From positions 1 to 44,833 of the forward strand of contig VGSG01000022.1 of NCBI GenBank assembly GCA_016875095.1: a stretch of 44,833 bases of DNA. Reading direction: 5' to 3'. The notes under the pieces are model-generated. The model had not been told where the DNA came from and ran no database searches. It worked only from the letters and a program-made list of their open reading frames with translations. This document shows positions 4,033 to 44,344 of this stretch, one piece after another. Within the stretch, counting starts at the first letter, position 1, and the number at the start of each line of letters is the position of its first letter. Source of the stretch: Deltaproteobacteria bacterium (GTDB taxonomy: Bacteria > Desulfobacterota > Desulfomonilia > Desulfomonilales > Desulfomonilaceae). A program made the translations under genes and the position numbers.

Positions 4033-4950
4033 TCACACCCGCACCCTAAGTCCGTCCTTTGCTACCACGACGGGGGGAAGGTCCAGTTCTCTCCTGATTC
4101 GATCTATCACAGCCTCCCATTCGGCCTGGCACGTGGGCACAGGGTAAGGCTCTCCGGTAAGAGGCGAAAGAAGCGGCGACAAGGGCTCGGACTTGTTCAG
4201 CGCATTGTTGGCGGGATCGCCGACCACTTGATCTCCCGCGGATATGTGGACGAGGTAGGCGCCTTTCATCGGTTTCCATCGTCGGATGTAGTCAATAGCT
4301 CTCTGGAAGCTCATGTGATAAGGCCGGTTGTTCATTGGCTCATTGAGCCAGTGCGATTGTATGATCAGCACGTCGGGATCCAAGAGTAAGGGGGGCTCAG
4401 CATCGACGCGAAGAAAATCCGAGGTGTACACAAGCTTACGAGAGCTGTTGCCCCGGTTTTCCTCGATCACGTACCCTACCGAGCCCGCGGCGGTGGGGCC
4501 ATGAAAAGTCTTGAAAGGCGTTACGCGTAAGGCCAGTCCTTCCAACGGATTGCCGGGCACGGCCTCCCTCTTCTCGAGGAGTGAGCCGACCAGGTACCCG
4601 AAACGCATATCAATAGCTTTCCAGCAAGTCGCGGTGGCGTACATGGGGATCGGGACCCACGCGTCTCTCGGCACGGATCGGCGGAACGCCAGCAAGTCGT
4701 CCACGCCTAAGAAGTGATCCGCGTGTTCGTGGGTGATGAGCACGGCGTCCGGACGACCAACGTCGTAAGCCTTCATCTGTCTTTGTATGTCGGGGCCGCA
4801 ATCGACAAGCAGCGTCTCATCGCTCTCCACGAGGAAAGAGGTGCGAGCGCGCTCCTCGCCTCTGCGCCTCATCTCCAGGCAAATCGCGCATCGGCACGAA
4901 TGCTCGGGTAAGCTCCATGCGCTTCCGGTTCCCAAGAAGAGGATCTCCAT
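4033..4950 (-). CDS. MBL-fold metallohydrolase, PhnP-like
   Basis: The first residues MEILFLGTGSAWSLPEHSCRCAIC resemble PhnP/PqqB-type beta-lactamase-fold enzymes. They include a cysteine cluster C-R-C-x-x-C that can hold a structural zinc. The metal-binding motif THEHADH is near residue 80. Later histidines appear in KTFHGPTA and QSHWLNEP. These enzymes hydrolyse cyclic phosphodiesters or related substrates; the substrate here is unknown. The ATG at 4950 has AAAGG seven bases upstream and is preferred over a GTG seven codons earlier. The gene lies downstream of infA in the same direction, about 195 bases away. Confidence 0.8.
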   Translation of the reverse strand: MEILFLGTGSAWSLPEHSCRCAICLEMRRRGEERARTSFLVESDETLLVDCGPDIQRQMKAYDVGRPDAVLITHEHADHFLGVDDLLAFRRSVPRDAWVPIPMYATATCWKAIDMRFGYLVGSLLEKREAVPGNPLEGLALRVTPFKTFHGPTAAGSVGYVIEENRGNSSRKLVYTSDFLRVDAEPPLLLDPDVLIIQSHWLNEPMNNRPYHMSFQRAIDYIRRWKPMKGAYLVHISAGDQVVGDPANNALNKSEPLSPLLSPLTGEPYPVPTCQAEWEAVIDRIRRELDLPPVVVAKDGLRVRV

Positions 4951-5145
4951 GAAACTGCCTTTCGGTCTCACGCGCTTCTTTCAAGACGGCGCAGGCCGGC
5001 CTCCGTGCAGGCGCGCCTTGCTCGATTAACCTCGACTGTAGAGCTCGGCGTTTCAGTGAGAAGACGAGCTCGGTAGCGTAATTTCGATGCTCAAAAGCGT
5101 CAAGGATTCCGTATCGAGCCGCTGCGAACGGGGTCACTGATGAGG

Positions 5146-5364
5146 TTACTTGTTTCGGTAGACGATCAGGCCGTGGGAAAGATCGTAAGGAGAGAGAGCC
5201 ACTGTCACGCGATCCCCAAGGAGAACCTTGATTCTATAGCGCGACATCCTGCCGGACAGCTTCGTCCGGATGCTTCTTCCGTCATCTGTTTCCACCTGGT
5301 ACATTCCGCCTGAATGCACTTTAACCACAGTGCCTTCGACCTTGATGTTGTCATCCCTTGCCAA
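5146..5364 (-). CDS. infA: Translation initiation factor IF-1
   Basis: The 72-residue protein is a single S1/OB-fold domain of exact IF-1 length. Conserved segments are KVEGTVVKV near the N-terminus, GRMSRYRIKVLLGDRVTVALSPYD in the middle (key part RIKVLLGD) and GLIVYR at the end. IF-1 binds the 30S A site and helps select the initiator tRNA. The gene lies 138 bases after kdsB and may have its own promoter overlapping the end of kdsB. Confidence 0.96.
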   Translation of the reverse strand: MARDDNIKVEGTVVKVHSGGMYQVETDDGRSIRTKLSGRMSRYRIKVLLGDRVTVALSPYDLSHGLIVYRNK

Positions 5365-7481: not shown

Positions 7482-7568
7482 GGGGCCTCCTGCATGTAAC
7501 TTCCCAAATTCAACCCTTCCCGCGAATCCGACGTTCGGCGGGGACGCTCCGGCCGGTAAGGACCCGTG

Positions 7569-8732
7569 TCAACCGAATGCCCGCTCGAAAATGGCTTCCG
7601 CCTCCTTCGCGCCCATGAATCGGGGGTTGTTTTCCACCGGTCGTGTGACCTTGAGCGCGCCTTCAACCAGTATTGGAATGTCCGAACGCGGGATGTCCAG
7701 TTCATTGAGCGAATGCGGTATGCCGATGTCGCGGCTCAATCTGGCGACTGCTTCCACGGCCAGGCTGCCCGCCAATCCCGGGGGTAAACCTTCGACCGCT
7801 TCGCCCATACTTCTGGCTATCATGGCAAACTTCTCTTCCGCGGCGGGAAGATTGAACTTCATAACGTGCGGGATCAACACGGCATTTGCCAGCCCGTGAG
7901 GTATGCGGTAATGGCCCCCGAGAGGATAAGCAAGGGCGTGCGCGGCCCCCACCCCGGCGTCAGCGAGTCCCATCCCCCCGAGAAGGCTCCCCATGAGCAT
8001 GCCTTCCCGGGCCTCGCCGTCGTTGCCGTGAAAGACCGCGCGACGCAGGTGACGGCTGATCAGTCGAATCGCGGCGAGTGAGAGCGCCTCGGTAAATACG
8101 GCGCTCGACCGGCTTGTATAGGATTCTATGGCATGAGTGAGAGCATCCATGCCGGTCGCGGCAGTTATCGCCGGAGGCAGCGAGAGGGTGAGTTCCGGGT
8201 CCACCAGCGCACGATCGGGAAAGAGACGCGGGCTGTTGATCCCCCCTTTTGCCTTGGTCTGTCGATTGGTAAACACGGCCGTAAACGTGACTTCCGACCC
8301 GGTTCCCGCTGTGGTGGGAACCATGATGGTCGGTAGACCGGGGCCGGGGACCAGGTTCAGACCCACGTAGTCCGCAGCGTGGCCGCCGTTTCGGATCAGC
8401 GCCGCCGCGGCCTTGGCGGTATCCATAACCGATCCGCCCCCCATACCGATCACCAGCTCTACTTGCCCGTCGCGCCCGAGCTGCGCCGCTGCGTCGGCAT
8501 TGTCAAGATACGGCTCCGGTTCCGTTCCGAGGAACTCCGTGATGCGGACGCCCGAGTCTCGCAAGATGCCGCGAGCTTTGTCCAGTACGCCTGTCTCTTC
8601 CAGAGCTTTGTCCGCCAGAAGCAGGCAGGCCTTCGCGCCCAGTTCGGACGCCAGTTCACCCAGAGAGTGGATCGCGTCGCGACCGAACACTATCTGCGTC
8701 TTTACGTGAAATCTACGGAATTGCGCAATCAT
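7569..8732 (-). CDS. kdnB: Iron-type alcohol dehydrogenase, probable KdnB
   Basis: The Fe-ADH family features are clear. GGGSVMDTAK is the NAD(P)-binding glycine motif. The metal ligands are the Asp and His of MDALTHAIES, the His of GAAHALAYPLG and the His of RIPHGLANAVL. In the Kdo8N pathway KdnB oxidises the C8 hydroxyl of Kdo to an aldehyde, which KdnA then aminates. The gene is first in the kdnB-kdnA-kdsB order, 87 bases before kdnA. I chose the ATG at 8732; a GTG six codons upstream (8750) is the alternative and neither has a strong ribosome binding site. Alone it would be only a generic group III alcohol dehydrogenase. Confidence 0.8.
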   Translation of the reverse strand: MIAQFRRFHVKTQIVFGRDAIHSLGELASELGAKACLLLADKALEETGVLDKARGILRDSGVRITEFLGTEPEPYLDNADAAAQLGRDGQVELVIGMGGGSVMDTAKAAAALIRNGGHAADYVGLNLVPGPGLPTIMVPTTAGTGSEVTFTAVFTNRQTKAKGGINSPRLFPDRALVDPELTLSLPPAITAATGMDALTHAIESYTSRSSAVFTEALSLAAIRLISRHLRRAVFHGNDGEAREGMLMGSLLGGMGLADAGVGAAHALAYPLGGHYRIPHGLANAVLIPHVMKFNLPAAEEKFAMIARSMGEAVEGLPPGLAGSLAVEAVARLSRDIGIPHSLNELDIPRSDIPILVEGALKVTRPVENNPRFMGAKEAEAIFERAFG

Positions 8733-16125: not shown

Positions 16126-16133
16126 CAAAACCT
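16126..16133 (+). repeat. Target-site duplication, left copy (CAAAACCT)
   Basis: CAAAACCT directly abuts the left inverted repeat, and the same eight bases recur at 18806-18813 directly after the right repeat. Eight or nine bases is the size expected for IS1-family insertion. Confidence 0.85.
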
Positions 16134-16150
16134 GGTAGTGTCCTAATTTG
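16134..16150 (+). repeat. Left terminal inverted repeat
   Basis: GGTAGTGTCCTAATTTG matches the complement of 18789-18805 at all 17 positions. The transposase stop codon (TAG, 16145-16143) lies inside it, so the gene runs to the very end of the element. Confidence 0.9.
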
Positions 16151-16964
16151 CCATTTCGAGGATTTCTTGTAGAGACCATAACCTATCCGTGACTCCCGCT
16201 TCCATTGCAGGAGTGACCTTCAACGCCTTGTGAATCCGCACGAAGTTGTAATGGGCGAAGTGCAAGGCCACAGCCGCTTGTAGGTTTTCCACTTTCTTGC
16301 TGAAGGCGTTCGTCAATCGTGTGAAACGGCGCATATTCATGCGCATTGTGAGATTCTGGCGCTCCACGAAAGAGGTTGAGGTCTTAGCAAGGTCAGGATT
16401 GCCAGAGATGCGCGTCTTCTCCACAGAGACCACTTTCGGTGGGCTATACCTACCCGGCCCAATTGGCTCCGCTTCATAGGTTTTTACGATTTGAGCAAAA
16501 TCCACATCCGCCCCGAACCTTTGTTCAACCGCTTCAACATAAAGCGGGAGCTTGTCGGCGCTGAGCTGAATGCGATTGAGAAGCCGGGAGTCAAGATCAT
16601 TGATGAGAGACCGCGCTGTGGCGCTATCACGCTTGCCCACCCGGTAAACGGGAACAAGCTTCGTCTCTGCGTCGAGGGCAACCCAGGTCCAGAAATCCCC
16701 CACGGTGGACGGATCATCGGATTCCCTGACATGGCGCTGCTTTTTACCGACGTAGCACCATATTTCGTCAAGCTGGATATGGCGGCATGAGAGATTCCAC
16801 ATCTCTCGGTCCATAATCTCCTCGCAAGCGTGGCCGACGCGCACCATGAGGCGCATGATGGTGTCACGGTGTATCCCGGTCATGCGTTCAACCGACCGGA
16901 TCGAGGAGCCCTCCACAAGCGCGCTCACGACCGCCGTTTGCTTGTCCAGGCTCAATTTATTCAT
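16143..16964 (-). CDS. IS1-family-like DDE transposase, single ORF
   Basis: An N-terminal HTH (about residues 8-45, with [17 protein letters not shown]) is followed by a DDE catalytic domain. LDEIW holds the first Asp (66), ADKLPLY probably the second (137), and [12 protein letters not shown] the Glu (201). [13 protein letters not shown] is characteristic of this transposase group. Classical IS1 makes InsAB' by frameshifting; here one uninterrupted frame of 273 residues encodes the whole enzyme. The ATG at 16964 has AGGGAG seven bases upstream. The gene lies at the left end, and its leader contains the tRNA-like structure at 16999-17072. Confidence 0.88.
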
Positions 16965-16992
16965 TGCCAATCTCCCTGTTTCGTCCTATACT
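16964..16992 (+). promoter_or_regulatory. Promoter for the plus-strand RNA of the IS element
   Basis: TTGCCA (16964-16969) and TATACT (16987-16992) each match five of six consensus bases and are separated by exactly 17 bases. The expected start site, about 16999, coincides with the edge of the structured block. The promoter overlaps the transposase start codon and ribosome binding site on the other strand, so the two transcripts would be convergent or antisense over this region. Confidence 0.55.
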
Positions 16993-16998
16993 CAGGAC

Positions 16999-17072
16999 TG
17001 GTGGAGCGCCGGGGTATTGAACCCCGCAGAACCGGGTGTAAATCCCAGACTGGGCAGCCCATTCCGCGCCCC
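16999..17072 (-). tRNA. tRNA-like structure, UUA anticodon, encoded CCA, reduced D arm
   Basis: On the minus strand, 71 bases plus CCA fold as a tRNA. The acceptor stem is 17072-17066 with 17009-17003 (seven pairs including G3-U70, the alanine identity element). The discriminator is A, followed by encoded CCA. The T arm has five pairs and a TTCAATA loop. The variable loop has five bases. The anticodon stem has five pairs with loop ATTTACA, giving anticodon UUA (17041-17039), complementary to the stop codon UAA. Weak points are an abnormal D arm (a possible TGGG/CCCA stem with a three-base loop, no GG), G at position 8 and C at position 37. Both imperfect pairs are G-U only on this strand (A-C on the other), which favours this strand as the one that folds. 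It may be a tRNA, a tRNA mimic in the transposase leader, or a decayed gene. Confidence 0.45.
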
Positions 17073-17087
17073 ACTGTTGCATTGATG

Positions 17088-17120
17088 AAACCCCCGTTCT
17101 GACCAACGGGGGTTTTCTAT
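17088..17120. terminator. Hairpin terminator inside the IS element
   Basis: AAACCCCCGTT (17088-17098) and AACGGGGGTTT (17105-17115) form an 11-pair stem with a six-base loop. On the plus strand it is followed by TTTTCTATTT and would end the small RNA. On the minus strand it lies ten-odd bases after the stop of the P63C gene and could also reduce readthrough into the transposase, though the T-run there is only TTT. Confidence 0.7.
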
Positions 17121-17129
17121 TTCCCCATC

Positions 17130-18269
17130 TCACGAATCGGTCTTTGTCGTGGGCGGCAAGTATAGCGTGATCTGGGTGGGCACCCGCCCGAATTGCTCTG
17201 CCATTCTCTGCCGCAACTCGGTTATGTTCTGGCATGTTTTCGCCATGCCAATGAGCATCCAAATATGCTCCACCAGCCTCTTCAATCCATACTGACTGCT
17301 GAGCCATTGGTGATAATTCTGTCCCGTGCGGGGCTTGGGCGCGTGCGACTTTAGCCATTCTGCAACATCTGGATCAAGATAGTCATAGACTAATTCCATG
17401 ACCAGTTTTCCCCAATACTTAGGTCTTTGATGCGCAGACCCTTTCCAGTTGGTGAGACGACCAAATTCAATCCACAGAGCATCGGGAAAGGTCTTTTCCC
17501 ATTTCCGCATCTCCTCTTCCAAGAAGAGTTTCAATTTGAACTGGAGCGCATCCTCCATTCTCTCGTACTGATAACCAGTGGCCTCATCCACGAGGGCTAT
17601 GATTCCCACCTTGGCGCACGCTCGGAGGAACGAATTTGCCCTGACGGCAATCTGTTTCTGCCGCGGAGTTAGTTCCTGGTGTTCTGCTGCGGCAGAATAG
17701 GCAGAGCATAAGTCCATGAACTTTTCCACGGGCAATCCTAAAGCATGTTTTGCCCAACCCCCACTTCCTGTATCGAAACGCATAAGGGCCGGAATGCGGC
17801 CATTTTCCTCAGGAGTTAACTCAGCAGAAAGATGAGGTTTTAGGGGTGCCACCATCACATAATCCTCAAGCGGTCCCCCATGAATACCAATCAACCCGAC
17901 CATAATCCCTTTGAGGCTGAATACCCGTTCCCCCGTTTCAAGGACATAGCACGGGAGTGTTGCGTCACCGATCTGCAATTCGCCTCCATGTGTCGCTCGC
18001 GGAACGCGGAGGTTAGAGGGCGAATCCGCTGCATATTTCTCCACCAATTCTTCCTCACCTATCTCGGCGTCGGTAGACTTTTGAAAAAAATCCTCAGGGC
18101 CGATCTCTATGTTTATCTCGCGCGCCAGTCGAAGAAGTTCATTTTGCCATTTTGCGGGGATAACTCCCTTGGCATACCAATTCTGAATAGTGCTTTGCTT
18201 CTTCCCAAGCAGTTTGGCGAGGGCACTTTGCCCCCCAAACTTCGCTATGATCTTGGCTGCCGGTGACAT
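17130..18269 (-). CDS. P63C-domain protein with N-terminal HTH, IS passenger
   Basis: Residues 1-50 form a Cro-like HTH (GGQSALAKLLGKKQSTIQNW), suggesting sequence-specific DNA binding. The C-terminal third matches the P63C domain: YQYERMEDALQ near residue 229, RKWEKTFPDALWIEFGRL, RPKYWGKL and HQWLSSQYGLKRLVEHIW. P63C proteins occur in phages and mobile elements, often fused to DNA-binding or antirepressor-type parts, with no settled function. The ATG at 18269 has AGGGGG just upstream. The promoter at 18340-18312 has a palindrome in its spacer, which fits autorepression. It is 379 residues and intact. Confidence 0.75.
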   Translation of the reverse strand: MSPAAKIIAKFGGQSALAKLLGKKQSTIQNWYAKGVIPAKWQNELLRLAREINIEIGPEDFFQKSTDAEIGEEELVEKYAADSPSNLRVPRATHGGELQIGDATLPCYVLETGERVFSLKGIMVGLIGIHGGPLEDYVMVAPLKPHLSAELTPEENGRIPALMRFDTGSGGWAKHALGLPVEKFMDLCSAYSAAAEHQELTPRQKQIAVRANSFLRACAKVGIIALVDEATGYQYERMEDALQFKLKLFLEEEMRKWEKTFPDALWIEFGRLTNWKGSAHQRPKYWGKLVMELVYDYLDPDVAEWLKSHAPKPRTGQNYHQWLSSQYGLKRLVEHIWMLIGMAKTCQNITELRQRMAEQFGRVPTQITLYLPPTTKTDS

Positions 18270-18311
18270 GGGGCCCCCTCGTTCTACCTATAACCTCGTT
18301 AGTTGTTCTTC

Positions 18312-18340
18312 AGGCTACCCACTTTGCGGGTAGGTGTCAA
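18312..18340 (-). promoter_or_regulatory. Promoter of the P63C gene with operator-like palindrome in the spacer
   Basis: On the minus strand TTGACA (18340-18335) and TAGCCT (18317-18312) are 17 bases apart. The inverted repeat CTACCC-N7-GGGTAG (18315-18333) lies almost exactly between them. Further GGGTA copies are at 18351-18355 and 18383-18387, in the shared region before the divergent small ORF. The arrangement is that of a site where a repressor blocks RNA polymerase; the HTH of the P63C protein is the obvious candidate. Confidence 0.5.
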
Positions 18341-18441
18341 GTGTTTTTGTGGGTAATGGCGAAAATACTTCCATGCACGAGCGGGTATAGTCAAACGCTA
18401 TCCTTCACTTGTTGGGATAAACCTGATATAGGGCGGCTGAA

Positions 18442-18750
18442 ATGAAATCACCCGAAGTTTCAAAAGAAGCATTGGCTAGGGCTATCCGAGAGCTTCACGG
18501 CTGCGAAGCGACGTGGATTGAATCCGTCCCGGTAAAAGAGGTTTTTGAGGGGGAGACCGTATGGGAAGGCATTGTCCAGGTCTTTTCTCTCATCGGACAT
18601 CCCACAGCTACTCGCTCCTATGCCTGGTCTCATCTCGTGGACGATTCAGGCAAGCGCAAATTCTTCGCCGTCCTTCACCAAGGGCCTGTTGATTCCCCCC
18701 GGGCTGCTGTCCGCGCTGCAATCGTAGCTGAGCACCGAAAGAAGGCGTGA
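18442..18750 (+). CDS. Small protein of unknown function, IS passenger
   Basis: The 102-residue protein lies divergent from the P63C gene and ends about 40 bases before the right inverted repeat. It is a mixed alpha/beta-looking soluble protein with several tryptophans and a basic, helical C-terminus (RAAVRAAIVAEHRKKA). The start has only a weak GGGCGG upstream. It shares the 172-base regulatory region with the P63C gene. I do not recognise a family; its place inside the element suggests a role in the element's upkeep or control. Confidence 0.6.
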   Translation: MKSPEVSKEALARAIRELHGCEATWIESVPVKEVFEGETVWEGIVQVFSLIGHPTATRSYAWSHLVDDSGKRKFFAVLHQGPVDSPRAAVRAAIVAEHRKKA

Positions 18751-18788
18751 CGTGCGCGTACGCGTTCATCCTCCTCGAACCCTGATTT

Positions 18789-18805
18789 CAAATTAGGACA
18801 CTACC
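18789..18805 (-). repeat. Right terminal inverted repeat
   Basis: This is the exact complement of 16134-16150. It is followed directly by the second copy of the target duplication. Confidence 0.9.
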
Positions 18806-18813
18806 CAAAACCT
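18806..18813 (+). repeat. Target-site duplication, right copy (CAAAACCT)
   Basis: It is identical to 16126-16133. Deleting 16134-18813 would restore an uninterrupted site that runs straight into TTGACA at 18816. Confidence 0.85.
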
Positions 18814-44257: not shown

Positions 44258-44344
44258 GCTCGGATGGCGGAATCGGTAGACGCAGTGGACTCAAAATCCA
44301 CCGCCCGCAAGGGTGTGCGAGTTCGACTCTCGCTCCGAGCACCA
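44258..44344 (+). tRNA. tRNA-Leu (CAA anticodon)
   Basis: The acceptor stem is GCTCGGA (44258-44264) with TCCGAGC (44334-44340), followed by discriminator A and encoded CCA. The anticodon stem GTGGA/TCCAC encloses CTCAAAA, giving CAA. The long variable arm (CGCCCGCAAGGGTGTGC region) is that of a class II tRNA-Leu. The T arm is GCGAG-TTCGACT-CTCGC. Promoter and terminator flank it. A tyrosine recombinase gene faces its 3' end. Confidence 0.97.
44318..44344 (+). other. Candidate attachment site in the 3' end of tRNA-Leu
   Basis: Tyrosine recombinases usually integrate at the T arm and 3' end of a tRNA gene, and this one lies 40 bases away pointing at it. The second att copy, if there is one, lies outside the window, so the limits given here are the T arm to the CCA by analogy only. 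Confidence 0.35.

Follow-up and report, generated by a model that had tools for sequence, protein, structure and literature searches.

A compact, alanine-type tRNA-like RNA opposed by a predicted antisense unit in an IS1-type cargo transposon

The window analysed here is a stretch of 44,833 nt from contig VGSG01000022.1 of a deltaproteobacterium (Desulfomonilaceae; assembly GCA_016875095.1). An IS1-type cargo transposon with terminal inverted repeats and a target-site duplication occupies positions 16134-18805 and encloses a tRNA-like block. Along the minus strand, the gene order is P63C-domain protein, tRNA-like RNA, transposase, and the features of the element are arranged as follows:

16126..16133 and 18806..18813, no strand: first and second copy of an 8-bp target-site duplication, CAAAACCT, identified from the sequence
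16134..16150, no strand: 17-bp terminal inverted repeat GGTAGTGTCCTAATTTG, with the transposase stop codon inside it
16143..16964, minus strand: IS1-type DDE transposase (Pfam PF03400), a single ORF of 273 aa with stop codon TAG
16964..16992, plus strand: antisense promoter TTGCCA-N17-TATACT, its predicted start being the complement of the tRNA-like 3′ end (from shuffles and conserved position)
16999..17072, minus strand: compact alanine-type tRNA-like RNA with encoded CCA
16999..17123, plus strand: predicted antisense RNA, i.e. the complement of the tRNA-like RNA plus the terminator (ends approximate; inferred from promoter and terminator)
17003..17009, minus strand: 3′ half of the acceptor stem; its third base, counted from the 3′ end, is U70, the partner of G3 (17070)
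17010..17026, minus strand: covarying T arm, CGGGG-TTCAATA-CCCCG
17037..17043, minus strand: anticodon-type loop AUUUACA, with anticodon UUA at 17041-17039 and C37
17066..17072, minus strand: 5′ half of the acceptor stem, GGGGCGC, with G3 at 17070
17088..17120, plus strand: intrinsic terminator of the antisense RNA, AAACCCCCGTT..AACGGGGGTTTT and then TCTATTT (from the sequence and T-rich tails in relatives)
17130..18269, minus strand: cargo gene of 379 aa, 5′ of the tRNA-like RNA, with a Cro/YdaS-like HTH (weak matches) and a P63C domain (PF10546, E = 5e-25)
18442..18750, plus strand: 102-aa cargo gene at the far end of the element, conserved in close relatives
18789..18805, no strand: terminal inverted repeat of the opposite end

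The transposase matches PF03400 with 41 bits (cut-off 24.1; E = 3e-10), its homologues lie at 41-68%, and those on plasmids are annotated as 'IS1 family transposase'. Classical IS1 elements join the insA and insB′ ORFs by a frameshift; here the transposase is a single 273-aa ORF, and we therefore describe the element as an IS1-type relative with cargo rather than as a classical IS1. Of its three genes, the 102-aa and P63C genes stop with TGA and the transposase gene with TAG, in line with a preliminary description of this DNA. The 102-aa protein had no match in Pfam or PADLOC, and PADLOC returned no significant defence match for the genes of the window. Homologues of the 102-aa gene occur in L016, L019, L065, L302, L303, L304, L306, L307 and L231, and in close carriers of the RNA the protein retains the motif ..HGCxAxWxE..GHPxAxxxYAWS..AVLHxGPxDSPxxAVRAxIV. 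Related elements measure 2.0-4.3 kb and have the same type of ends, with cargo changing between them. In elements L303-L330, the cargo reads like toxin-antitoxin pairs, DNA methylases and serine-protease-like proteins (a reading of the sequences, some of which were scanned against Pfam), and a small protein with the pattern GGLKGGKARA..RxEIAxKAAxxRW recurs. Contig C152 (L003, L015) of the window's own genome bears a further IS1-type transposase in the form of a degenerate fragment that is ~67% identical, has an internal TAG and lacks the tRNA-like RNA.

The minus-strand tRNA-like block at 17072-16999 is real. Read in this direction, it comprises the acceptor 5′ half GGGGCGC, GGAATGGGCTGCCCAGT, the anticodon arm CTGGG-ATTTACA-CCCGG, TTCTG, the T arm and GCGCTCC-A-CCA, which bears out the earlier description of a 7-bp acceptor stem with G3-U70, an encoded CCA, a canonical T arm and the anticodon UUA. 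With both strands searched, the window contains only two tRNA-like structures, this block and a genuine tRNA-Leu at 44258. The chance expectation from resampled sequence, counting any 5-bp T stem with an NTCRANN loop and a 7-bp acceptor at tRNA-like spacing, is 0.05 per window, and 0 when CCA must be encoded. Neither ARAGORN nor Rfam, even at E up to 10, called a tRNA at 17072-16999, nor did they report a tmRNA at the block, the RNA being 71-74 nt long. Two Rfam near-matches, to rnk_pseudo (E = 0.035) and hammerhead III (E = 1), are explained by the terminator hairpin and by chance, the hammerhead core being absent. The RNA of the window has a compact D arm, no 8-9 linker and a C at position 37. 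Folded by itself, its sequence does not adopt the cloverleaf at minimum energy: acceptor and T arm appear, but the middle refolds (z = -1.84), and so the case for a tRNA-like fold rests on relatives.

Some 30 relatives were found in seven or more phyla, which by record titles include Verrucomicrobiota, Chloroflexota, Acidobacteriota, Nitrospirota, Myxococcota, Fibrobacterota, Pseudomonadota and deltaproteobacteria. They were collected in five ways, namely by BLAST among transposase loci, with a degenerate DNA pattern, upstream of transposase homologues, via the 102-aa gene (L302) and with covariance models run on whole genomes. About half of the members came from the pattern search, which forced GGGG..CTCC and TTACA, so that the invariance of these strings in pattern-found members is not independent evidence. 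The same pattern also returned tRNA-Val(UAC), tRNA-Ala(UGC) and tmRNA 3′ ends, which were removed by eye and with ARAGORN; L238/L243 (phage contigs), L237 and the weak scorers L230, L140 and L209 were not taken as sure members. When 395 genomes from the phylum of the window were scanned with model R1, no more than six matches exceeded 49 bits (host tRNAs scored at most 41.5), and all six adjoin an IS1-type transposase or its truncated start. In these genomes, the RNA lies upstream of the transposase in six of the eight closest homologues, one of the other two being cut by a contig end, and in several elements it falls within the inverted repeats and target-site duplication. Control loci, mostly IS1-type transposase loci without a known RNA, gave no convincing covariance-model match. 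In plasmid homologues from cultured Mesorhizobium, Methylocapsa, Acidiphilium and Hoeflea, the transposase is present and the RNA absent.

The common fold consists of a 7-bp acceptor stem, a 3-4-bp D stem without linker and with a WGGN loop, a long and imperfect anticodon stem with a 7-nt loop, a variable loop of 0-5 nt and a 5-bp T stem with a TTCRANN loop; A73 is invariant in the compact family. Because a full MAFFT alignment of all members (A3) misplaced the acceptor stem, the analysis relied on a seed alignment together with covariance models. In alignment A5, made with MAFFT and not fitted to a covariance model, 91.3% of cells are paired, 16 of 25 pairs show two-sided changes and the covariation score is 0.632, as compared to 0.203 for shuffled alignments. 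The corresponding values for alignment A8 (34 sequences) are 92.5%, 20 of 25 pairs and 0.635 versus 0.153, with slid-partner controls reaching at most 0.128. The preliminary description would have fallen had homologous elements lacked compensatory changes in the stems; across relatives, the stems do show them. As to strand, the minus reading of alignment A7 contains, outside pair 3-70, 41 G-U versus 15 A-C appositions (eight of the latter at the loop-closing pair), and the larger A8 contains 39 versus 19, a weaker bias than in A7. This excess of G-U over A-C argues that the structured RNA is that of the minus strand; together with the fixed G3-U70 pair, it establishes on comparative grounds that this strand carries the structure.

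All 31 compact members have G-U at pair 3-70, whereas pairs 4-69 to 7-66 vary; pair 4-69, for instance, becomes G-U in L302 and C-G in L372, with 3-70 unchanged in both. Between 11 and ~15 of the members with G3-U70 were found without this pair being demanded (the window, L016, L005, L019, L246, L247, L248, L302, L334, L364 and L367, by BLAST, transposase, 102-aa gene or covariance model), the covariance models themselves somewhat favouring G-U at 3-70. G3-U70 is the main identity determinant for alanyl-tRNA synthetase (AlaRS), and an invariant G3-U70 beside changing neighbour pairs makes recognition by AlaRS the natural reading. The pair had been singled out beforehand as an alanine identity feature, and its retention throughout the compact family supports the predicted recognition.

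The anticodon, in contrast, is never an alanine one (NGC). Most members have UUA, with CUA in L302, UAG in L364 and L386, UGG in L367 and L387, and UCU in L369; all of them correspond to stops or to typically rare codons. C37 is frequent, and U33 is nearly constant but replaced by C in L019, L065, L219 and L248. The unusual C37, the occasional C33 and an anticodon arm longer than the canonical one make ribosomal decoding doubtful. The earlier proposal of an alanine-inserting ochre suppressor thus holds insofar as UUA dominates, but is too narrow, because CUA, UAG, UGG and UCU are also represented and C37 sets the family apart from normal suppressor tRNAs. A putative alanine tRNA reading something else would be the better description.

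On the plus strand, the promoter at 16964-16992 and the terminator at 17088-17120, both proposed previously, are present, and their positions are conserved across the family. TTGCCA-17-TATACT scores better than all 200 shuffles and ends 9 nt before the complement of A73. Among 34 carriers, 15 have an antisense promoter with P ≤ 0.05 (Fisher 1.7e-15; same region in sense direction, 0.44), matches being weak in several GC-rich members (L177, L189, L302). Only when read along the plus strand does the hairpin at 17088-17120 run into TTTTCTATTT. In the family, a terminator hairpin lies just past the 5′ end of the RNA, and of 36 relatives, 31 have its T-rich tail on the antisense side, as compared to two with a sense-side tail. 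Given this placement of promoter and terminator, the antisense unit spans the tRNA-like RNA almost exactly. Judged by sequence, then, both signals are conserved and convergent with the tRNA-like RNA.

In the case of IS10, antisense RNA-OUT, acting on RNA-IN, has its promoter near the transposase start. The antisense promoter of the window likewise lies near the transposase start (start codon at 16964) and overlaps the transposase ribosome-binding site. However, with a predicted start at ~16999, at the 3′ end of the tRNA-like RNA, the antisense RNA would cover that RNA and not the ribosome-binding site. Of the previously suggested antisense regulator, the plus-strand unit itself is therefore upheld by conservation, while transposase control of the IS10 type fits poorly.

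We favour, at about an even chance, a reading in which the block, as transposon cargo, encodes a tRNA mimic that is charged by AlaRS, decodes stop or rare codons, is restrained in cis by an antisense RNA and possibly belongs to an addiction-type module. The RNA would probably be transcribed from the upstream cargo gene (encoding a P63C or winged-helix protein), released by RNase P and 3′-end processing, and aminoacylated with alanine by AlaRS. Rather plausibly, the plus-strand RNA, starting opposite the tRNA-like 3′ end, would pair with the minus-strand RNA and lower its level or disturb its fold. Once in translation, the charged RNA may perhaps act as a donor of non-cognate alanine at stop or rare codons, a reading suggested by an anticodon that is always a non-alanine one (UUA, CUA, UAG, UGG or UCU). 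A benefit to the element, as a poison paired with an antisense antidote or as comparable cargo for addiction or defence, is put forward tentatively, and that decoding would be poisoned or altered when the antisense restraint is missing is speculative. It is a somewhat doubtful extension of these ideas that there might be a class of selfish cargo made of tRNA genes whose alanine charge mismatches their anticodon and which are silenced by cis-antisense RNA, that is, toxin-antitoxin modules with a miscoding tRNA as the toxin.

Alternatively, the RNA could serve as a cis-acting transposase leader, in which RNase P and 3′ processing, binding of AlaRS or EF-Tu, or convergent antisense transcription sets the transposase level while the RNA is inert in translation. 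In the window and its closest relatives, the RNA lies on the transposase strand and ends 35-59 nt short of the transposase start, which would agree with this, as would the overlap of the antisense promoter with the ribosome-binding site. In other members, however, 124-289 nt separate the RNA from the transposase, and some lie beside an IS1595-type transposase in another orientation, or without any IS1-type transposase within 1.5 kb; moreover, G3-U70 would be superfluous for a signal that serves processing alone. We regard this explanation as unlikely.

Less probable still is that only the plus-strand RNA matters, acting in an RNA-OUT-like or guide-like manner, and that the tRNA features of the minus strand are a relic of a captured tRNA. 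Although no transcription signals in the family are more regular than the plus-strand promoter and terminator, the tRNA fold is kept by compensatory changes, the minus reading favours G-U over A-C, the T-loop and D-loop consensus are those of the sense tRNA, and G3-U70 becomes a C-A mismatch in the plus RNA.

We give even less weight to suppression of the element's own stops, whereby the RNA would let an in-frame UAA or UAG in the cargo or transposase be read as alanine. The UUA or CUA anticodon of most members would suit this role, the transposase stop of window-type elements is a TAG inside the inverted repeat, and the carriers L177 and L198 have an in-frame TAG in the transposase. Yet in-frame stops also interrupt the transposases of L361, L366, L290 and L281, which have no RNA, the anticodons UAG, UGG and UCU are unable to read stops, and no gene of the window's element is visibly split by TAA or TAG. 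A proposed link between a UUA RNA and in-frame transposase stops failed, as such stops are also found without the RNA, and no gene clearly needing the RNA emerged. As a separate observation, the unrelated IS1-type transposases of L344 and L367 have an in-frame TAG in place of the same conserved lysine (after VDYGQIV and VDFAQLI, respectively).

That the block is a captured tRNA-Ala or tmRNA end in decay, or else an attachment site, is hardly credible. Even though the 3′ half resembles tmRNA and tRNA-Ala 3′ ends and the search pattern also picks up tmRNA ends, the family shows strong covariation (which rules out a degraded host tRNA or tmRNA attachment site), both acceptor halves, consistent unusual D and anticodon arms, and a spread over several phyla.

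The putative AlaRS-charged mimic can be set against known RNAs. With tRNA-Ala it shares the 7/5 acceptor and T arms, G3-U70, A73, the T-loop TTCRANN and, in some members, an encoded CCA; it differs in having no alanine anticodon, no 8-9 linker, a D loop of ~4 nt, an extended anticodon stem and almost no variable loop. ARAGORN fails to recognise most family members, and RF00005 does not recognise the family. A reduced D arm, G3-U70, GGGG..CTCCACCA ends and a helix replacing the anticodon arm are reminiscent of the tRNA-like domain of tmRNA, but the family is ~70 nt long, lacks an mRNA-like domain and pseudoknots, has NUUUACA as its terminal loop and gave no tmRNA match worth counting. In tRNA-Pyl, a short D arm, a lengthened anticodon stem and a minimal variable loop are combined with a stop anticodon. 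The family resembles it in all four respects, but has G3-U70, A73 and a canonical T loop. Finally, allo-tRNAs are non-canonical bacterial tRNAs with an 8/4 or 9/3 acceptor branch, some of which have G3:U70, and with it AlaRS identity, together with non-alanine anticodons (PMC7609411). In contrast, the branch of the present family is 7/5, there is no long variable arm, and the gene is transposon cargo with a cis-antisense unit.

The surroundings of the RNA vary. Directly 5′ of it, on the same strand, usually lies a gene for a small coiled-coil/winged-helix, DUF5343-like or P63C protein (most Pfam matches are weak). The initial assignment to an IS1-like element does not extend to the family as a whole: the RNA is not tied to IS1, because relatives also adjoin IS1595-type transposases (L189 and L388) or sit in a type I-C cas locus. 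L388 carries compact tRNA-like RNAs at 7503-7571 and 4898-4966 and L189 one at 2197-2265 (with the anticodons UCU, UAG and UUA among them), beside IS1595-type transposases or elsewhere in the same genome, and in L390 a compact G3-U70 RNA (UUA) at 5179-5249 is flanked by cas7 and cas1 within a type I-C CRISPR-Cas locus (as read from protein sequences).

Between the upstream gene and the hairpin, nine relatives have a strong Shine-Dalgarno sequence, an ATG/GTG-AGA-AGA mini-ORF and a stem-loop, where 0.09 would be expected. The carriers are L306, L019, L065, L304, L307, L314, L329, L194 and L124, with the mini-ORF 80-130 nt 5′ of the tRNA or tRNA-like RNA. This is the same anatomy as that of CreT, an RNA toxin that sequesters tRNA-Arg(UCU) (PMC8501985). 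The window itself lacks an AGA-AGA mini-ORF of the CreT plan (strong Shine-Dalgarno sequence, AUG, two rare codons, stem-loop). The nine mini-ORFs, the position of L390 between cas genes and the notion of an RNA-only poison on tRNA function recall CreTA (PMC8501985); unlike in CreTA, the antidote would be an antisense RNA rather than a Cascade guide. The mini-ORFs, together with the cas-locus and IS1595 neighbours, suggest RNA-level cargo aimed at translation.

The open literature, as far as its incomplete coverage reached, described no RNA of this kind from cargo elements of the IS1 or IS1595 type, so that the family is likely, rather than certainly, new. It adds an RNA family missed by standard annotation, on mobile elements in many phyla. 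Were the RNA charged and active, it would constitute a natural, mobile and antisense-controlled source of stop-codon readthrough or mistranslation, with a bearing on the persistence of mobile elements and on bacterial tolerance of ambiguous decoding. Being compact, of AlaRS type and naturally diversified in the anticodon, the members would in that case also be relevant to suppressor-tRNA design.

Other IS1-type elements carry tRNAs of canonical shape (L314 7516-7589; L322 1934-2006; L309 1934-2027; L318 7825-7897; L329 2864-2936; L023 3798-3871), 85-150 nt upstream of the transposase and, in L314 and L309, inside the inverted repeats. They score 46-66 bits with standard tRNA models. Their anticodons are odd: GCU in L314 and ACU in L322, both on a body with a short variable arm, and UAU in L309 on a serine-like body with a long arm, while L318 has a 9-nt anticodon loop. 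L309 has a strong terminator, but its promoter at the corresponding position is not strong; L314, L322 and L318 share the antisense promoter and terminator arrangement.
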